Source of the DNA: Lachnospiraceae bacterium | Lineage (GTDB): Bacteria > Bacillota_A > Clostridia > Lachnospirales > Lachnospiraceae | Assembly: GCA_017652545.1 (NCBI GenBank) | Contig: JAGCAV010000207.1 | Location: 1 to 8,233 of the forward strand | DNA length: 8,233 nucleotides | Direction of reading: 5' to 3' | Shown here: one piece after another, positions 2,212 to 8,233 of the stretch | How the letters are laid out: each line of letters begins with the position of its first letter | Numbering within the stretch: the stretch's first letter is position 1 | Program-made: the position numbers and the translations under genes | The notes under the pieces: model-generated | Databases searched by the model: none | The model's input: the letters and a program-made list of their open reading frames with translations, nothing else | What the model was told of the DNA's origin: nothing

Positions 2212-3594
2212 TTACATATGAATCAGGTAACGCTGTACCTTGCCGGTGGCTGTTCTCGGCAGCGGGTCTTTGACGAAAAGCACATCGCGAAGCTGCTGTC
2301 CTCTGGGATATTCCTTCATCAGGGGACCGAGAATTTCCAGCACCCGGCTGCGTGTCATTATGCCTGATCTGTCATGGATCACCAGAACGGGGGCATGGTC
2401 TTTTTCGAGGATCGCAAGGTCGCAGTCCTCAAGAAGCCTGTGGACCCGTTCTTCATATTCCGGAAGAAAGATCTTGGTACCATCCTGCAGTACCAGGATC
2501 TCTTTTTTTCTGCCGATTATGTGCAGCCGGCCGTTTTCATCAAAGCGTCCGAGATCACCTGACGAGAGGATGCCATCCTTCATGACCATCGTGGTTTCTT
2601 CCGGGAATTTATAATACCCCTGCATCATACACCGGTCCGCGCGGATCAGGATTTCACTGTCGGAAGAAAGTTCGATATGAACGTCGGGACACAGGGCGAG
2701 CGCATACGGATCTCCGGAAACACTGATCGCCACCCCTGAACTGGTCTCCGTCATGCCATATCCGAAGCTGACCCGGATTCCCTTTGCGCGCACAGCTTCA
2801 AGAAGCGGGAGCGGGCAGTCGCCGGCCCCGACCAGAACTGTGGAAAGCCCGGGATTGAGCGCATTCTGTTTCAGAAGAAAACCGAGAAGGGCCGGAACGA
2901 GAGAGACAGCAGTCGGCCTGAAAAACAGAGGATCGGCGTTTATGTAACGCAGGCCTCTGCCGATACATACGCAGGCTCCGCACTGAAGGCCCCAGAGAAG
3001 GGAACACACAAAACCGAAAACATGATTGAGCGGCAGAACACATAAAAGGGAATCCTCCCGGTCAAGCGGCAGCATGCAGCTTCCGTTCCAGGCACTGCTC
3101 ATCAGACTGGAATCGGTGAGCACAACAGCCTTGCACGCGCCGGTTGTACCGGAGGTGAAGAAAAGAATATTTCCCGGAAAAGGCGCCAGGAGACGCTCCC
3201 CGGAGGGAGGCAGAGAGGGCAGAACGTTAAGCGCATCGGACAGTTCATCGATCAGATCCTCATCCCCCCACAGACAGTCGATATCTGTATAACGGATCTG
3301 GCTGCGCAGAAGCTCTTCAGGTGCGTTCCCGTCAAGCATAACCGTCTGTATGCCGGACAGCGGCCCCGCCAGAGAAGTGAGGACACAGTCCAGGCTCCCG
3401 TCACAGAGGATACCAAGACTGCGGCATCCTTTCGAAATGAGCTCGTCCCGACGGGACAGCACCAGCTGATACAAAGCGCCGTATGTCACAGTTCCGATCC
3501 TGTCACCATCCGTACAATACGTAAGAGCCGGCGATTCCGGCTGCCCGGCGGCCTGCGCCCGCAAAAGTTCTTCAAATCCGGAAAATCTTGTCAT
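2212..3594 (-). CDS. AMP-forming acyl ligase (acyl-CoA/acyl-ACP synthetase family)
   Basis: The 460-residue protein starts at the ATG (3592-3594), 8 bp after GGAGGG (3603-3608). An earlier in-frame ATG at 3663 would run back into the thioesterase gene and is rejected. All core ANL-superfamily motifs are present: the phosphate loop T147-S-G-T-T-G-A-C-K155, the Y279-G-M-T-E283 motif, the adenosine-ribose Asp in SSGDLGRF (D347), the hinge region GRLHIIGRKKEI (R362) and the C-terminal PRTATGK motif with the catalytic lysine K452. It should therefore activate a carboxylate as acyl-AMP and pass it to a thiol. It is shorter than typical long-chain acyl-CoA synthetases (about 500-560 residues), nearer to OSB-CoA ligase or DltA size. 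Co-transcription with a carrier protein and an acyl-ACP thioesterase suggests that it loads a fatty acid onto that ACP, but a CoA acceptor is equally compatible with the sequence. Substrate is not determinable from motifs alone. Confidence 0.85.
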   Translation of the reverse strand: MTRFSGFEELLRAQAAGQPESPALTYCTDGDRIGTVTYGALYQLVLSRRDELISKGCRSLGILCDGSLDCVLTSLAGPLSGIQTVMLDGNAPEELLRSQIRYTDIDCLWGDEDLIDELSDALNVLPSLPPSGERLLAPFPGNILFFTSGTTGACKAVVLTDSSLMSSAWNGSCMLPLDREDSLLCVLPLNHVFGFVCSLLWGLQCGACVCIGRGLRYINADPLFFRPTAVSLVPALLGFLLKQNALNPGLSTVLVGAGDCPLPLLEAVRAKGIRVSFGYGMTETSSGVAISVSGDPYALALCPDVHIELSSDSEILIRADRCMMQGYYKFPEETTMVMKDGILSSGDLGRFDENGRLHIIGRKKEILVLQDGTKIFLPEYEERVHRLLEDCDLAILEKDHAPVLVIHDRSGIMTRSRVLEILGPLMKEYPRGQQLRDVLFVKDPLPRTATGKVQRYLIHM

Positions 3595-3602
3595 ATGCCT
3601 TT

Positions 3603-3608
3603 CCCTCC
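3603..3608 (-). promoter_or_regulatory. Ribosome binding site fixing the acyl ligase start
   Basis: GGAGGG on the minus strand lies 8 bp before the ATG at 3592-3594, in the 16-bp gap after the thioesterase stop codon. It decides the start against the upstream in-frame ATG at 3663. Confidence 0.75.
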
Positions 3609-3610
3609 GG

Positions 3611-4327
3611 CTACCTGTATGCCATCTGCATCCGGAATACCATTTTGTCAGTCTCACCTGCAATGCTGATCCGGTCCTGATCTTCTGCGTATCTGATGAG
3701 AAGCTGCTGGCCGAGCCGCACTTCGCTTACATATTCGACACAGATCTCACGGATCTCTTTCTGATACCATTCAAAAGGCAGTATATCCTGCACGATATCA
3801 ACGTAACGGGCATTGTTCAGATGCCCGTTCATATCCACCAGGCTGGGAGGTATCGTGATTTCGGCGCTGCGGTCCGTATTTTTAACGGCAAATCTTTTCG
3901 GAAGAGGGATCTCATCCCCTGTTTCCTCACCCGGGATCGTGATGTCATACTTCTCGGGGAAGGCTATTTTCCGTTCCTTCGCGTCCATCAGGACCCAGAG
4001 AGAAGATGTTTCAATGACCGGATTGCCCTGTTCATCACAGAACCGGCAGTAACGCGGAAAGAAAAGATGCATCGTCCTGCCGGGCCAGGTTCTGAGCGTC
4101 AGGCGCTCGTCATAGACCGGAAGCCGGTGAATACGCGCACGATGATGGGAAACGACCCAGAGAAGCCCACGGTCCAGGGTCTTTTCCCTGGGACAGCCCA
4201 GCAGGATCGTATGCTCGATCGCTGCCTCCTGAAGCATGGAGAACATGGATGAAAGACGAAGGCGGCGATACATGTCAACATGAGCGGCCTTCAGCTGAAC
4301 AGGCTTTTCAAAAATGTCCGTGCTCAT
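3611..4327 (-). CDS. Acyl-ACP thioesterase (FatA/FatB-like, double hotdog)
   Basis: The chosen start, ATG at 4325-4327, gives 238 residues and follows the ACP stop by 2 bp; a GAGG (4339-4342) precedes it within the ACP gene. An in-frame ATG at 4399 would lie deep in the ACP gene and is rejected. The N-terminal hotdog holds MYRRLRLSSMFSMLQEAAIEH and the strand DERLTLRTWPG. The second hotdog has VDMNGHLNNARYVDIV, matching the plant FatA/FatB D-x-N-x-H-x-N-N signature. By recall of the Umbellularia enzyme, D165, N167, H169 and E202 (in EYVSEVRLGQ) line up with its Asp/Asn/His/Glu catalytic set. The Cys beside that Glu in plants is Val203 here. The enzyme should hydrolyse acyl-ACP to free fatty acid in the cytoplasm. 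It is the middle gene of an ACP-thioesterase-ligase operon. Chain-length or double-bond preference cannot be read from the sequence. Confidence 0.85.
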   Translation of the reverse strand: MSTDIFEKPVQLKAAHVDMYRRLRLSSMFSMLQEAAIEHTILLGCPREKTLDRGLLWVVSHHRARIHRLPVYDERLTLRTWPGRTMHLFFPRYCRFCDEQGNPVIETSSLWVLMDAKERKIAFPEKYDITIPGEETGDEIPLPKRFAVKNTDRSAEITIPPSLVDMNGHLNNARYVDIVQDILPFEWYQKEIREICVEYVSEVRLGQQLLIRYAEDQDRISIAGETDKMVFRMQMAYR

Positions 4328-4329
4328 CT

Positions 4330-4584
4330 TCACTTTTTCCTCGCCAGACGTTTTTCTATGGCACTGACCACATCCCCGAATGTTGACAGCTTTGCCCACT
4401 GGCGATCGGGGATCTTCACGTCGAAACGGCTTTCCAGGCGGCAGATAATCAGTGTAAAGCCCATGGAATCAATAGCTGTATCTGTATTGATCACGGTGTC
4501 ATCATACAGAGGTGTTCCTTCCATTTCGGGAACACACTCATACACAACCTCTTTGCAGATCTCGGAAATCTCCTGTCTGGTCAT
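4330..4584 (-). CDS. Acyl carrier protein, stand-alone
   Basis: This small, mostly helical protein has the phosphopantetheine attachment motif T-A-I-D-S-M-G-F. The serine is residue 40 with the start used here. The preferred start is ATG 4582-4584, because GAAGGA (4591-4596) sits 6 bp upstream of it. The next ATG upstream (4600-4602) has no ribosome binding site and lies only about 10 nt from the predicted transcription start. That gives 84 residues, usual for an ACP. The motif is D-S-M rather than the D-S-L of the housekeeping FASII AcpP, and the helix after it (IICRLESRFDVKIPDRQW) differs from AcpP, so this is a specialised carrier. It is the promoter-proximal gene of the leftward operon and would carry the acyl chain handled by the downstream thioesterase and ligase. 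Holo-ACP synthase is not in the window. A PCP-like role with a non-fatty-acid substrate is possible. Confidence 0.85.
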   Translation of the reverse strand: MTRQEISEICKEVVYECVPEMEGTPLYDDTVINTDTAIDSMGFTLIICRLESRFDVKIPDRQWAKLSTFGDVVSAIEKRLARKK

Positions 4585-4590
4585 AGCTTG

Positions 4591-4596
4591 TCCTTC
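4591..4596 (-). promoter_or_regulatory. Ribosome binding site deciding the ACP start
   Basis: GAAGGA on the minus strand lies 6 bp before ATG 4582-4584. The upstream in-frame ATG at 4600-4602 has only A/T-rich leader before it, so the shorter 84-residue ACP is preferred. Confidence 0.65.
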
Positions 4597-4618
4597 TTTC
4601 ATTTTTAAATTTTATCAA

Positions 4619-4627
4619 ATTATAGCA
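4619..4627 (-). promoter_or_regulatory. Extended -10 promoter of the ACP-thioesterase-ligase operon
   Basis: The minus strand reads TGCTATAAT, a perfect -10 hexamer (4619-4624) with the TG dinucleotide of an extended -10. No convincing -35 hexamer is found at 16-18 bp (AACCTG at 4642-4647 with a 17-bp spacer). Transcription would begin near 4612, leaving a leader of about 28 nt to the preferred ACP start. Confidence 0.6.
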
Positions 4628-4645
4628 TAAAAACGGGTAAACAGG

Positions 4646-4674
4646 TTTATTTTTTGTTCATTTGAATGTATAAT
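4646..4674 (+). promoter_or_regulatory. Promoter of the isomerase operon
   Basis: A perfect TATAAT (4669-4674) lies 47 bp upstream of the isomerase ATG. The hexamer 17 bp before it (TTTATT, 4646-4651) is a poor -35, which suggests dependence on an activator or on the T-rich upstream context. The predicted transcription start is near 4681. The -35 region overlaps that of the opposite operon's promoter, so the two are likely to be co-regulated or to interfere with each other. Confidence 0.55.
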
Positions 4675-4693
4675 TCATATAGTTTTTTTGAAC
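4656..4693. promoter_or_regulatory. Palindromic half-sites at the isomerase promoter (candidate operator)
   Basis: TGAAT-N5-ATTCA (4663-4677) is a perfect inverted repeat with the -10 box TATAAT in its middle. A second, overlapping palindrome TTCA-TT-TGAA spans 4657-4666, and an outer pair GTTCA (4656-4660) and TGAAC (4689-4693) flanks the whole. A protein bound here would block the -10 element. The repeats are seen directly; an operator role and the regulator are unknown, and the A/T-rich composition raises the chance of coincidental palindromes. Confidence 0.4.
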
Positions 4694-4707
4694 GAATGGA
4701 AAAAAAC

Positions 4708-4716
4708 AAGGAGGAG
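4708..4716 (+). promoter_or_regulatory. Very strong ribosome binding site of the isomerase gene
   Basis: AAGGAGGAG is nearly the full anti-Shine-Dalgarno complement and ends 5 bp before ATG 4722-4724. It implies high translation of the isomerase. Confidence 0.8.
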
Positions 4717-4721
4717 AAATC

Positions 4722-6116
4722 ATGGATAAAAACACAAGGATCTGTATCATCGGAGGCGGTCCGGCCGGATTGTCCGCGGGCATGTATCTTGAACAGAAAG
4801 GGTATGAAAATTACACCATTCTGGAAAAGCTCGGACGTGTCGGCGGCAAGTGCTGGTCACCCCATTACAACGGAAGGCGTTACGAGATGGGCGCCATCAT
4901 GGGCGTACCTTCCTATTATGCTGTTCACGATGTTGAGGAGTTCTGCGGAATCACGCATGACGGGCCGAAGCTGAACCGGAATTACAAGGATCGTACCGGC
5001 AAAGTGATCGAGCCCTTCGATCCGAAAAAGAATCCGCTCAAGATCCCGCGTCTCCTGAAGATGAAAAAGCAGCTGAAGAAATTCGGTGAACTGCTGGAGA
5101 CCAAGTACAAGGGATATGATATCAACGGCCACAGGGGCGTAGCCGAAGGTCGTTATGACGGATTTTCTGCTGCCAGCGCAAAACGTGAGCCGGTCAGCGG
5201 TGTCAATCCGAATCTGAAAGACCTGTCGCTTCCCTTCTCGGAATTCTGTAAGAAAAACGGTGTTGAACTGATTCAGGATATCTGGATCGGACCCTTTACC
5301 TCATTCGGATACGGATATTTTGATGAGATCCCGGCAGCATATGTTGTGAAATACCTGGACTTCCAGACCTGCATGAACTTTGTCAAGATCAATCTGTGGA
5401 CCTGGAAAGAAGGAACGCAGTTCATCTGGGAATCCCTGAATGAGCATCTTAAAAATCCGGCCCGGCTCAACAGCCACATTGAAAAGGTTGAACGAAGAGA
5501 CGGAAAGGTGTATGTGACCGTAAACGGAGAAGTGGAAGAGTATGACAAGATCATCGTCACCTCGCCGCTGTATGTCCCCAACAAGGAAGGCCGCGACGAC
5601 GGGCTTGTCGGTATGGTAGATTACTTTGACGCACGCCAGGATGAGAAGAAACTGTTCTCCAAGATCGAATATGAGCGCTACGATGTGCTGGCTGTGGAGA
5701 CAAAGCCGGAGGATCACCCCGAAATATCATACTATGTATTTGACAACATGATCCCTGAGCGCCTTGGACATCTGATGGTCTATTACCGCCGCTGGAGAGA
5801 TTCCGTGGAGCAGGTCATCACGACCTATGCACTGCGCAAACATAAGAATTCTGAGGAAGTTCCGTATGAGAAATGCAAGAAGATGGTTCTCCATGACCTG
5901 AAGGCCATGAAGAATCCGGCTTCCAAAGTCGTCAATGAATGGAGCGTTTACTATTTCCCGCATGTTTTCTCAGAAGCTTACAGGGACGGCTGGTATGACA
6001 AGGTCGAAGCCATGCAGGGCAAGTATGACACCTACTATGCCGGTGAGATCATGTCCTTCGGTGATATGGATGAGACAGCCGAGTATTCAAGAGAACTGGT
6101 CGAGCGTTTCTTCTAA
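4722..6116 (+). CDS. Polyunsaturated fatty acid double-bond isomerase-like flavoprotein (C. acnes PAI family)
   Basis: This 464-residue soluble flavoprotein has an N-terminal FAD Rossmann motif (G11-x-G13-x-x-G16), an acidic E35 for the adenosine ribose, and the GRVGGKC segment of amine-oxidase-like enzymes. A C-terminal FAD motif covers about 438-455 (YYAGEIMSFGDMDE). Compared from memory with the Cutibacterium acnes linoleate isomerase (PAI, about 424 residues), long stretches agree: GMYLEQ, GRRYEMGAIMGVPSY, GYGxFDxxPAAYVxKYLDF, PERLGHxMVYYxRW and AGEIMSFG. R86 and F220 line up with PAI Arg88 and Phe193, which hold the fatty-acid carboxylate. PAI converts linoleic acid to trans-10,cis-12 conjugated linoleic acid by FAD-mediated hydride abstraction and return, with no cofactor consumed. 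The protein carries an extra stretch of about 23 residues near 138-160 and one of about 12 near 284-305. It is first in the rightward operon, followed after 63 bp by a second flavoprotein. Family is confident; regiochemistry and substrate are inferred. Confidence 0.88.
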   Translation: MDKNTRICIIGGGPAGLSAGMYLEQKGYENYTILEKLGRVGGKCWSPHYNGRRYEMGAIMGVPSYYAVHDVEEFCGITHDGPKLNRNYKDRTGKVIEPFDPKKNPLKIPRLLKMKKQLKKFGELLETKYKGYDINGHRGVAEGRYDGFSAASAKREPVSGVNPNLKDLSLPFSEFCKKNGVELIQDIWIGPFTSFGYGYFDEIPAAYVVKYLDFQTCMNFVKINLWTWKEGTQFIWESLNEHLKNPARLNSHIEKVERRDGKVYVTVNGEVEEYDKIIVTSPLYVPNKEGRDDGLVGMVDYFDARQDEKKLFSKIEYERYDVLAVETKPEDHPEISYYVFDNMIPERLGHLMVYYRRWRDSVEQVITTYALRKHKNSEEVPYEKCKKMVLHDLKAMKNPASKVVNEWSVYYFPHVFSEAYRDGWYDKVEAMQGKYDTYYAGEIMSFGDMDETAEYSRELVERFF

Positions 6117-6128
6117 TGGAAATCAGGC

Positions 6129-6159
6129 GTGAGGCGGGAAGACGTTTCTTCCCCCTCAC
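6129..6159 (+). other. Intercistronic RNA hairpin between the two flavoprotein genes
   Basis: The left arm GTGAGGCGGGAAGA (6129-6142) pairs with TCTTCCCCCTCAC (6147-6159): 13 base pairs, a single bulged C and a four-base loop (CGTT). No T-run follows, so it is not a classical intrinsic terminator. It may protect or punctuate the polycistronic mRNA, or set the expression ratio of the genes on either side. The pairing is seen directly; the role is inferred. Confidence 0.65.
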
Positions 6160-6168
6160 AGGACAGAT

Positions 6169-6174
6169 GGAGAG
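6169..6174 (+). promoter_or_regulatory. Ribosome binding site deciding the start of the second flavoprotein
   Basis: GGAGAG ends 5 bp before ATG 6180-6182. The longer frame from GTG 6129 has no such site and its start would be buried in the hairpin stem. Confidence 0.7.
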
Positions 6175-6179
6175 AAAAC

Positions 6180-7739
6180 ATGAAATATTACAAAGATCAC
6201 TATGACGTGATTGTGATCGGCGGCGCACTGGCCGGCCTTTCCTCAGCGCTTATGCTGGCGGACAAGGGGCTGGATGTGCTTGTCCTGGAACGCCACAATC
6301 TGCCTGGCGGGATTGCGACCAGCTTTGTCCGCGGCGGTATCGAGATTGAAGCCGCCCTGCATGAGATGATGTCCATCGGCCCGAAGGAAAACAGGCTGAA
6401 GGTCGGAAAGTTTCTGGATGACATGGGCGTAGATATCAACTGGCTGCCTGTACCGGAGTGCTACCACGCGTCGCTGCCGGGACTGGAAGTCACACTTCAT
6501 CCCGGACTTGAACGCTTTTCCAGGGAGATCGATGAGCAGGTGCCCGGAACATACGAAAAGGTCCTCTCGCTGTTAAAACTCTGTGATGAGGTCTTTAACA
6601 GTGTGAATGAGCTGTCCATTCACCCCATGAGCAAACCCCAGATGCTTCTGAAACATGAAGCTTTCGTGAAAACTGCCGGATATTCGACAAAGGAAGTCAT
6701 AGACAGCTTCCAGCTGCCGCAGAAGGCAGTTGATCTGCTTGCGCCGTACTGGATCTATGTGGGCAGCGGTTTTTCGGATCTGCCGTTTACCATCTATTCC
6801 GTTCTGATGGCCGACTATGTCGGGTATGGTTCCATGATCCCGAAAGATCTGAGCCATGAGATGAGCCTGAAGATGGCTGAACGGGCAGCTCAGATGGGGG
6901 TCCAGATCGAATACTGCCAGCATGTGGAAAAGATCCTTGTGGAAAACGGAAGGGCATACGGGGTGCGGACCAGAAGAGGTGATGAGATCCACGCTGACTA
7001 TGTCATCTCATCCGCCTATCCGAACGCCGTATACACGCATATGATCGAGCCTGCATCCGAGGTTCCCGAAAAAGCGACTAAGATGGTCAATGGCAGACGG
7101 ATCGGCCTGACCGCCTTTTCTGTGATCATGATTCTCGATCAGACGGCAGAAGAGCTCGGTATTCATGATTACAGCGTTTTCCGCGGTGACACCATGGATA
7201 CGGACAAACTGTATGAGAATCTCGCGGGACTTGGACCTTACCGGTATCTGACATGTATCTGCCATAATCTGGCAAATGAAACGGTAACGCCTCCGGGGAC
7301 ATGCTCATTTTCCATCACGACGCTTCCGCAGGTTGACGGCTGGAAAACGGTTACAGCAGATGAGTATGACAGGGTCAAGCATCAGGTCGCCAGACAGATG
7401 ATTGATGATATGTCCGCCTACCTCGGTGTCAATCTGCTTGATCATATACTTGAGATCGTGATCGAGACGCCGATGTCGGTAGCGCATTATACCGACGCCT
7501 GGAACGGATGCATCTACGGATATGCGCATACCATGCAGGACCATATCATCGCAAGGCTGCAGACGGCCAAAGAAGAACAGATCATCGGCGGTCTGGAGTT
7601 CGCCGGAGCGCATGCGATCTCCGGTGACGGAATGGGCCCGCAGGTGACCAACGGACGAAAAGCGGCCAAAAATGTGCTGGATGATCTGGAGAAAAGGAAA
7701 CAGCAGTCAAAGAACAGGAGAAAGGAGGCACAGAGCTGA
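6180..7739 (+). CDS. CrtI/retinol-saturase-like FAD oxidoreductase
   Basis: This 519-residue protein has the phytoene desaturase (CrtI)/carotenoid isomerase/RetSat architecture. The N-terminal FAD-binding fold DVIVIGGALAGLSSA is followed by E37 and LPGG (41-44), and the C-terminal FAD motif lies in EFAGAHAISGDGMG (473-486). The middle Gly of G-x-G-x-x-G is Ala16. The family acts on conjugated or polyunsaturated chains, either removing hydrogens (CrtI), isomerising (CrtISO) or saturating a double bond (RetSat). No carotenoid synthesis gene (phytoene synthase) is in view. Sitting behind a fatty-acid isomerase and directly coupled to a reductase gene, a fatty-acid double-bond reductase is the most attractive reading. 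It remains an inference; a desaturase or a thiol-carried acyl substrate cannot be excluded. The lysine/arginine-rich C-terminus (505-516) may favour membrane or nucleic acid contact, or may simply be variable. No signal peptide is seen. Confidence 0.8.
   Translation: MKYYKDHYDVIVIGGALAGLSSALMLADKGLDVLVLERHNLPGGIATSFVRGGIEIEAALHEMMSIGPKENRLKVGKFLDDMGVDINWLPVPECYHASLPGLEVTLHPGLERFSREIDEQVPGTYEKVLSLLKLCDEVFNSVNELSIHPMSKPQMLLKHEAFVKTAGYSTKEVIDSFQLPQKAVDLLAPYWIYVGSGFSDLPFTIYSVLMADYVGYGSMIPKDLSHEMSLKMAERAAQMGVQIEYCQHVEKILVENGRAYGVRTRRGDEIHADYVISSAYPNAVYTHMIEPASEVPEKATKMVNGRRIGLTAFSVIMILDQTAEELGIHDYSVFRGDTMDTDKLYENLAGLGPYRYLTCICHNLANETVTPPGTCSFSITTLPQVDGWKTVTADEYDRVKHQVARQMIDDMSAYLGVNLLDHILEIVIETPMSVAHYTDAWNGCIYGYAHTMQDHIIARLQTAKEEQIIGGLEFAGAHAISGDGMGPQVTNGRKAAKNVLDDLEKRKQQSKNRRKEAQS
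7721..7728 (+). promoter_or_regulatory. Ribosome binding site of the reductase gene
   Basis: AAAGGAGG lies inside the end of the preceding gene, 10 bp before ATG 7739-7741. The ATG shares one base with the upstream TGA stop (TGATG), an arrangement that usually couples translation of the two genes. Confidence 0.75.
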
Positions 7740-8233
7740 TGAAGATCAAGGGATTTCTGAAGGATGTCGGCGGTGCCTCACGCGTAACAAAGGCAAGACT
7801 CGACGCTTTCGCCCAGGCCTCACCCTCCCTTCCCGACAAGGATCCCATCGGGGATGTCGCAAGGGAATGGCACCCGGGCAGGATCGCGCTCAGAGTCGCA
7901 TCCGTTACGCCCACCGGAAAGACGGCAAAGACCATCCGGCTTGAAAGAACCGACGGGAAACAGCTCCCGCCGTTTTATGCCGGGCAGTATATGGTACTGG
8001 ATCTGAAGATCGGGGATCACATCATCTCCAGGCCATATTCCATATCATCCGCGCCTTACCAGGCAAGGGAAAAAGAAGACGGGAAAACACCCTTCACGGA
8101 GATCACGGTGCGTCGGTCAAAAGGCGATGGTTTTGTCTGTGATTTTATCAATGATGAGCTGAAACCGGGTGATGAACTGACGGCTGTCATGGGCTGCGGC
8201 CAGTTCTACTATGAACCGCTCCGGGATGCCCGG
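7739..8233 (+). CDS. Ferredoxin/flavodoxin-NAD(P)H reductase-like protein, 5' part
   Basis: The frame is open from ATG 7739-7741 to the end of the window, giving the first 165 residues. After a basic, apparently unstructured N-terminal lead of about 45 residues comes an FNR-type FAD-binding beta barrel. VASVTPTGKTAKTIRLER starts the first strands, AGQYMVLDL (81-89) is the usual G-Q-Y/F segment, and R98-P-Y-S101 (SRPYSISSAP) is the hallmark flavin-binding R-x-Y-S motif. It continues with RRSKGDGFVCDFIND and LKPGDELTAVMGCGQFYY. The NAD(P)H-binding half, and any C-terminal 2Fe-2S domain, would lie beyond the window. Such proteins shuttle electrons between NAD(P)H and a ferredoxin, flavodoxin or partner flavoenzyme. 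The one-base overlap with the CrtI/RetSat-like gene suggests that the two proteins work together and supports a reductive role for that enzyme. Which acceptor it serves is unknown. Confidence 0.82.
   Translation, partial: MKIKGFLKDVGGASRVTKARLDAFAQASPSLPDKDPIGDVAREWHPGRIALRVASVTPTGKTAKTIRLERTDGKQLPPFYAGQYMVLDLKIGDHIISRPYSISSAPYQAREKEDGKTPFTEITVRRSKGDGFVCDFINDELKPGDELTAVMGCGQFYYEPLRDAR

Follow-up and report, generated by a model that had tools for sequence, protein, structure and literature searches.

Can a single bacterial locus both shift a double bond of a polyunsaturated fatty acid into conjugation and then reduce the conjugated product? The question is raised by a stretch of DNA of 8,233 nucleotides from a Lachnospiraceae bacterium (GenBank assembly GCA_017652545.1, contig JAGCAV010000207.1), called the window below. 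It carries a gene for a PAI-type fatty acid isomerase, followed on the same strand by genes for a CrtI-like flavoprotein and an FNR-type reductase. Reading the other way is a carrier operon, which encodes an acyl carrier protein (ACP), an acyl-ACP thioesterase and an acyl ligase. Our conclusion, drawn from sequence comparison, is that this locus is probably an isomerisation and conjugated-bond reduction unit for polyunsaturated fatty acids, found in anaerobic Clostridia, many of them from the ruminant gut, and that it probably follows the trans-10 route.

Layout of the locus

The features are as follows, with coordinates in the window.

2212..3594, minus strand: AMP-forming acyl ligase, 460 amino acids, final gene of the carrier operon; PF00501 (AMP-binding), E 1.5e-32
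3611..4327, minus strand: acyl-ACP thioesterase (TE), 238 amino acids; PF01643, E 9.5e-21, and PF20791, E 2.4e-10
4330..4584, minus strand: dedicated ACP, 84 amino acids; PF00550 (PP-binding), E 6e-5; phosphopantetheine DSM motif
4585..4721, no strand: divergent control region, 137 bp; TATAAT at 4669-4674; GGAGG ribosome-binding site 5' of PAI
4722..6116, plus strand: PAI; closest solved relative 2b9w (isomerase of Cutibacterium, also Propionibacterium, acnes), E 2.1e-134
6180..7739, plus strand: CrtI/CRTISO-fold FAD oxidoreductase, candidate conjugated double-bond reductase, 519 amino acids; Amino_oxidase, E 5.7e-18
7739..8233, plus strand: FNR-type reductase, N-terminal part, 165 amino acids, ending at the window edge; PF00970

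The initial annotation, made from the sequence alone, had named these six families and placed them in two operons, and the open reading frames and profile scans agree with its list. Together with the synteny described below, they also confirm that PAI, CrtI-like and FNR genes are co-directional, and that the ACP, thioesterase and ligase genes diverge from them at a common 137-bp region. The FNR start codon begins on the last base of the CrtI-like gene, and the 165 amino acids present compare with 395 in a full-length relative (L001). For the CrtI-like gene, a GTG at 6129 in the list of reading frames was rejected as the start in favour of 6180, where GGAGAG precedes an ATG and the alignment consensus opens with MKFYKDHYD. 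Relatives support the ACP start at 4584, since their ACPs open MDRNQIAEICKEV or similar, and the 137-bp control region is therefore taken as correct; from an upstream ATG at 4602 the gap to PAI would be 119 bp. The carrier genes run ACP-TE-ligase in the window, against ligase-ACP-TE in most relatives (tblastn, 80 loci).

The isomerase

The window PAI is homologous to the C. acnes PAI (2b9w) over its full length, and 222 of 416 aligned residues (53%) are identical. The FAD dinucleotide motif GGGPAG is kept. Residues R88, F168 and F193 of the C. acnes enzyme, which we take to be those that hold the fatty acid (carboxylate and gate), correspond to R86, F195 and F220 in the window, and are invariant in an alignment of 25 sequences that spans identities down to 53%. 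Judged by these features and by the match to 2b9w, the protein is a true PAI homologue with the key residues, as first annotated. The C. acnes enzyme makes the trans-10,cis-12 conjugated acid, and PAI is believed to work on free acids.

Conservation of gene order

A genome scan found 307 stretches encoding a PAI relative, of which the best 80 were kept (83-94% PAI identity) with flanks of up to 10 kb. The in-house gene caller misses genes in low-GC loci (L121, L123), so the synteny counts rest on tblastn; a locus was counted only where its sequence extends far enough on the side concerned. A CrtI-like gene lies directly 3' of PAI on the same strand in 78 of 79 loci, with a gap of 9-592 bp (median 69.5), and FNR is present in 73 of 74. 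The divergent carrier genes are conserved almost as well (ligase 69/73, ACP 61/64, thioesterase 60/64). The initial annotation had proposed a search for conserved synteny of the six families, and had regarded rare co-occurrence of the two operons as evidence against a joint function; these counts show that they regularly occur together. Departures are few: no carrier set was found within the range searched in L061 and L078, nor a ligase in L001, and in L003 the carrier set is about 5 kb off, on the plus strand.

A further gene often accompanies the set. A 937-residue 4Fe-4S/FAD oxidoreductase, related to GltD/Nfn, occurs in 26 of the 37 loci of at least 20 kb, and in 27 of the 50 loci where this could be judged it follows downstream on the same strand within 8 kb. 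HypA (20 of the same 37 loci) and one or two HypB nickel chaperones (14 of 37 for each HypB query) recur with this oxidoreductase, for example in L007, L029, L041, L059, L116 and L125. Two contigs binned as Sphaerochaetaceae (Spirochaetes), L054 and L064, carry the same locus with a PAI 85% identical to that of the window; an older transfer or mis-binning is possible. A plasmid search gave just three distant matches, at no more than 27.3% identity.

How old is this arrangement? Compared with the window, median protein identity is 87% for PAI (80 loci), 80% for the CrtI-like protein (77 loci) and 52% for the ligase (63 loci), while identity at fourfold-degenerate sites is 39%, 36% and 34% respectively. 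The fourfold sites are far diverged, and conservation of the locus is therefore old and selected, most strongly in PAI, which has been under long-standing strong purifying selection. Recent horizontal transfer as the source of the 83-94% PAI identity is not supported, the raw fourfold-site identity being 26-52% in the ten loci listed.

In their titles, 61 of the 80 loci name a ruminant or carry a RUG tag, which we take to mean rumen uncultured genome. The titles divide into 25 that name a ruminant (24 RGIG entries with animal and gut site, and one red deer), 36 with the RUG tag and 19 without a stated host in the portion of the title available. None of the 80 names Butyrivibrio.

PAI and the CrtI-FNR pair in wider samples

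Two wider samples were searched. The first comprised 299 genomes from the family of G002. This genome, from which L005 comes, was chosen as the centre of the sample for carrying the locus. With a limit of matches better than 1e-100, PAI was found in 12 of them, and a CrtI-like gene adjoins PAI in all seven whose PAI is at least 60% identical (six of six without G002). A CrtI-like protein of at least 50% identity is encoded in eight of the 299, beside PAI in seven. In G081, where PAI is missing, one of two CrtI-like copies is accompanied by HypA, HypB and the oxidoreductase, and the other by FNR. In L125, L127 and L129, PAIs 54-57% identical to that of the window adjoin the 4Fe-4S/FAD oxidoreductase instead of CrtI-FNR, perhaps as an alternative reductase arrangement.

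The second sample comprised 391 genomes of the class, with a limit of E 1e-60. PAI was found in two (G002 and G550) and a CrtI-like gene in 16, three at 59% identity or more and 13 distant (32-40%). Two of the three close ones lie beside PAI and the third is in G345. Taking both samples together, a close CrtI-like gene (at least 50%) is beside PAI in eight of ten distinct genomes (seven of nine without G002); of the remaining two, one has a PAI remnant and one no PAI. Comparison of G345 (L150) with G550 (L151) shows a single stretch of about 3.6 kb missing, from inside PAI to inside the thioesterase gene, so that the ligase and ACP are gone (L150 10457-10996 against L151 4133-7736; aligned pieces 90-95% identical). 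G345 retains the last fifth of PAI, and the CrtI-like, FNR, oxidoreductase, HypA and HypB genes.

FNR adjoins the distant CrtI-like gene in 12 of 13 class-sample loci, and in all five of the distant family-sample loci retrieved, a sixth (G290) ending too soon to tell. Pairs without PAI were seen in L120-L124, L152-L162 and L164, and several of these adjoin a gene that is TetR-like by eye. Since distant CrtI-like and FNR genes adjoin in genomes that lack PAI, CrtI-FNR looks like an old pair which PAI joined, and the retention of the pair as neighbours there is consistent with a general reductase pair that draws on NAD(P)H. The initial annotation had counted it as unfavourable if the CrtI-like and FNR genes usually lay among carotenoid or unrelated genes. 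The distant pairs do often occur without PAI, but the close versions are mostly beside PAI, in the eight of ten genomes given above.

The CrtI-like protein and FNR

The CrtI-type fold of the flavoprotein is confirmed, the closest solved fold being the gamma-carotenoid desaturase 4rep. The best NCBIfam profiles are carotenoid isomerase (E 2.6e-30, under the curated cut-off) and phytoene desaturase. Neither curated cut-off is reached, the scores being 105.7 against 586.9 bits for TIGR02730 and 99.1 against 238.1 for TIGR02734.

These profiles suggest a possible link to carotenoids, and in the initial annotation carotenoid genes as usual neighbours would have spoken against the proposed function. 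No phytoene synthase (PF00494) was matched in any of 20 genomes that encode a CrtI-like protein, whether close or distant, genome completeness not being stated and the window's own genome lying outside the 20; the control detected PF00494 in 7 of 14 known genomes. There is thus no trace of a carotenoid pathway in the 20 genomes examined, and own carotenoid synthesis is rejected for them.

The FNR relative at L001:5314-6501 bears FAD_binding_6, NAD_binding_1 and Fer2 domains, of which the window holds the N-terminal domain only. The cysteine pattern C....C..C is present in all 69 called FNR proteins longer than 350 amino acids. By family, FNR is an electron carrier from NAD(P)H through FAD to a 2Fe-2S centre, and the domains of the full-length relative agree with its first description as a supplier of electrons.

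The carrier operon

The closest solved chains to the ligase are CoA ligases (4-coumarate, oxalate and succinylbenzoate ligases). Its translation in the window shows a TSGTTGACKA loop and the motifs GRKKE and TATGK. Of 64 called ligases, 62 contain GR.[KS][ED] and 58 have a GK motif towards the end. The canonical loop SGTTG is found in just three; most have TSGTT, another residue, then KA. The thioesterase has 2ess, 2own and 4gak as solved relatives, and a D.N.H.NN..Y motif in 56 of 66 called genes. All 55 called ACPs have the D/E-S-M/L motif.

The control region

Rfam gave no match at gathering cut-offs, and a promoter scan found 4 candidates against 3.6 in shuffled sequence, and 6 terminator-like structures against 3.5 (sd 2.2). 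Relatives often have the element GTGCA(A/T)TT within 200 bp 5' of PAI, usually with 18 bases from GTGCA to TATAAT (e.g. L007, L009, L014, L041, L059). Of 77 PAI upstream regions, 41 score at least 11; among 302 other upstream regions 3 do so, and among 45 on the ligase side none, the element having been discovered on the same data on which it was scored. With a spacing of 14-18 bases, GTGCA precedes TATAAT in 28 of the 77, and does so twice in 2.66 Mb of other strand sequence. The element may act as an activator site specific to this operon, or as an unusual -35 element. The element is absent from the 137-bp region of the window.

Other genes in the window

A DUF362-ferredoxin gene (1018-2142) was rejected as a member of the locus; it occurs in 2 of the 80 loci (L007 and L036), more than 8 kb from PAI. 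A protein with a HicB-like antitoxin fold is encoded at 473-754 on the minus strand, and no HicA toxin was found among the nine window proteins scanned.

Proposed pathway

In the proposed first step, PAI, with its FAD, would turn free linoleic or alpha-linolenic acid into a conjugated form by moving one double bond. By its strong homology to the C. acnes enzyme, the product would most likely be trans-10,cis-12. In the second, the CrtI-fold flavoprotein would reduce one bond of the conjugated diene, a role suggested by its fold, its place in the gene order and its partner. Electrons from NAD(P)H would reach it through the FAD and then the 2Fe-2S centre of the neighbouring FNR; many relatives have the large 4Fe-4S/FAD oxidoreductase, which may add to the supply. 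This reduction would give a trans-monoene, for instance trans-10-18:1. The third step is the weakest part of the proposal: the ligase may load a fatty acid onto the dedicated ACP, from which the thioesterase would release it, and acyl-ACP would thus serve as the storage or transport form of substrate or product. The pathway as a whole may serve to detoxify polyunsaturated acids and to dispose of reducing power.

The initial annotation had suggested conjugation followed by saturation. The six conserved families, the PAI residues, the FNR domains and the lack of phytoene synthase in the 20 genomes agree with this, while the frequent occurrence of CrtI-FNR pairs apart from PAI does not. It is the best available reading, in which we infer each catalytic step.

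Several observations weigh against it. The CrtI family also includes desaturases and isomerases, so that reduction, rather than isomerisation, is a putative role for the CrtI-like protein. PAI alone does not imply a reductase, since C. acnes stops at conjugated linoleic acid (CLA). L066 retains PAI, ligase and ACP without a CrtI-like gene or FNR in place, its thioesterase gene being 3' of PAI. In five of the 12 PAI genomes of the family sample, those with 54-58% identity, PAI has no CrtI-like neighbour, although in one of these, G221, the contig ends 166 bases after PAI and the downstream side cannot be read; in three the 4Fe-4S/FAD oxidoreductase stands there instead. CrtI-FNR pairs are common without PAI, and none of the 13 class genomes with a distant CrtI-like gene has PAI at E 1e-60. 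The nearest solved relatives of the ligase are CoA ligases, and the carrier set is not obviously required if PAI uses free acids, as is believed. The FNR of the window is incomplete. An MCRA hydratase is also encoded in two genomes that bear the locus (G004 and G049). Finally, the 80 loci were selected from 307 for their identity to the query, which may account for part of the rumen bias.

Alternative explanations

The alternative that survives best keeps the pathway and changes its branch: this PAI clade might yield the cis-9,trans-11 product, giving rumenic and then vaccenic acid. The 194 of 416 aligned residues that differ from the C. acnes PAI leave room for this. On the other hand the C. 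acnes enzyme makes trans-10,cis-12, the presumed carboxylate and gate residues are unchanged, and Butyrivibrio is missing from the 80 locus titles, so we regard the trans-11 branch as unlikely.

A role in assimilation or membrane-lipid remodelling is less likely again. Here the ligase and ACP would import exogenous polyunsaturated fatty acids, PAI and the CrtI-like protein would tailor them, and the acyl-ACP would enter phospholipids, with the thioesterase as editor. The serine motif in every called ACP, the largely kept ligase motifs and the conserved divergent placement of the carrier genes favour acyl-ACP chemistry of this kind, but a thioesterase, present in 60 of 64 loci, would free the chain again.

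It is very improbable that the locus serves isoprenoid chemistry, with the CrtI-like protein and FNR isomerising or saturating plant carotenoids or retinoids and PAI a paralogue acting on a related polyene. The match to 4rep and the two top profiles point this way, but the curated cut-offs are unmet, the neighbours are fatty-acyl genes and PAI keeps its fatty-acid residues; the lack of PF00494 in the 20 genomes excludes their own synthesis, not use of dietary carotenoids.

That the genes are unrelated and adjacent by accident in one strain is refuted by synteny of 78/79 and 73/74 in loci with far-diverged fourfold sites, counts that exclude chance.

Comparison with known systems

The PAI of C. 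acnes (2b9w and related entries) resembles that of the window in its whole-length homology, FAD motif and equivalents of R88, F168 and F193. The contrast drawn in the initial annotation with this single-enzyme system holds: C. acnes ends at CLA, whereas the window PAI comes first in its operon, ahead of a candidate reductase and FNR, and lies opposite a divergent carrier operon. According to the consulted sections of PMC7339423, the end product in C. acnes is trans-10,cis-12-CLA, trans-10 products came from C. acnes alone among 28 cultures, it stops at CLA, and rumen trans-10 producers have not been unambiguously identified. PAI homologues were reported in 7 of 228 rumen metagenome-assembled genomes (Lachnospiraceae 2, Oscillospiraceae 1, unclassified 4), by BLASTp with a minimum identity of 40%, together with correlations; two genomes with another isomerase type correlated likewise (Zhang 2023, PMC10019597, in the sections consulted). 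These are of the same gene family and taxa as the window PAI, but the words 'reductase' and 'operon' each appear 0 times in the main text (PMC10019597).

The linoleate isomerase and CLA reductase of Butyrivibrio fibrisolvens perform the same two steps, isomerisation and then reduction of the conjugated diene. The reductase (CLA-R) was reportedly described by Fukuda in 2007. The system differs in giving trans-11 products, and CLA-R is set beside the locus by description, not by sequence. In the parts of the sources consulted, the B. fibrisolvens reductase also converts trans-10,cis-12-CLA to trans-10-18:1 (PMC7339423), its isomerase is described as membrane-bound (PMC12254105), and an isomerase gene was not found in the genomes of PMC6249431.

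The Lactobacillus CLA-HY/DC/DH/ER system also takes a polyunsaturated acid to a less unsaturated one overall. It works by hydratase chemistry, and the distinction drawn at the outset stands: the MCRA hydratase (PF06100) has no match among the nine window proteins, and of 15 genomes that carry either the locus or its CrtI-like gene it passes the cut-off in 2, G004 and G049, both of which have the locus. CrtI/CRTISO/RetSat flavoproteins share the fold and full-length profile similarity, but the window protein is paired with an FNR/2Fe-2S reductase beside PAI, and its relatives are found where PF00494 is not (0 of 20 genomes).

Searches of the open-licence PMC literature showed no account of a cluster that combines PAI with a candidate reductase, an electron chain and a carrier set, in keeping with the initial annotation, which knew of no described system of this exact composition.

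Meaning of the locus

PAI itself and its presence in rumen metagenome-assembled genomes are already known (PMC10019597, as consulted). As far as the open-licence PMC literature tells, the conserved cluster with its candidate reductase, electron chain and carrier set would be new. The rumen genes for conjugation and partial saturation of plant polyunsaturated fats are largely unidentified, and the process bears on milk fat. The conserved locus couples a member of a trans-10-type isomerase family to a candidate reductase of its own, and so offers named genes for expression, for quantification in metatranscriptomes and as markers. A trans-10 shift has been linked to operational taxonomic units of Lachnospiraceae NK3A20, the [Eubacterium] coprostanoligenes group and Muribaculaceae (PMC9853040, in the parts consulted). 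More tentatively, variation in the locus could underlie this shift and milk fat depression, and CrtI-FNR could represent a wider, unrecognised class of anaerobic conjugated-bond reductases, a proposal about which we are somewhat doubtful. The locus would also suggest a function for the CrtI-FNR pair that recurs in anaerobes.

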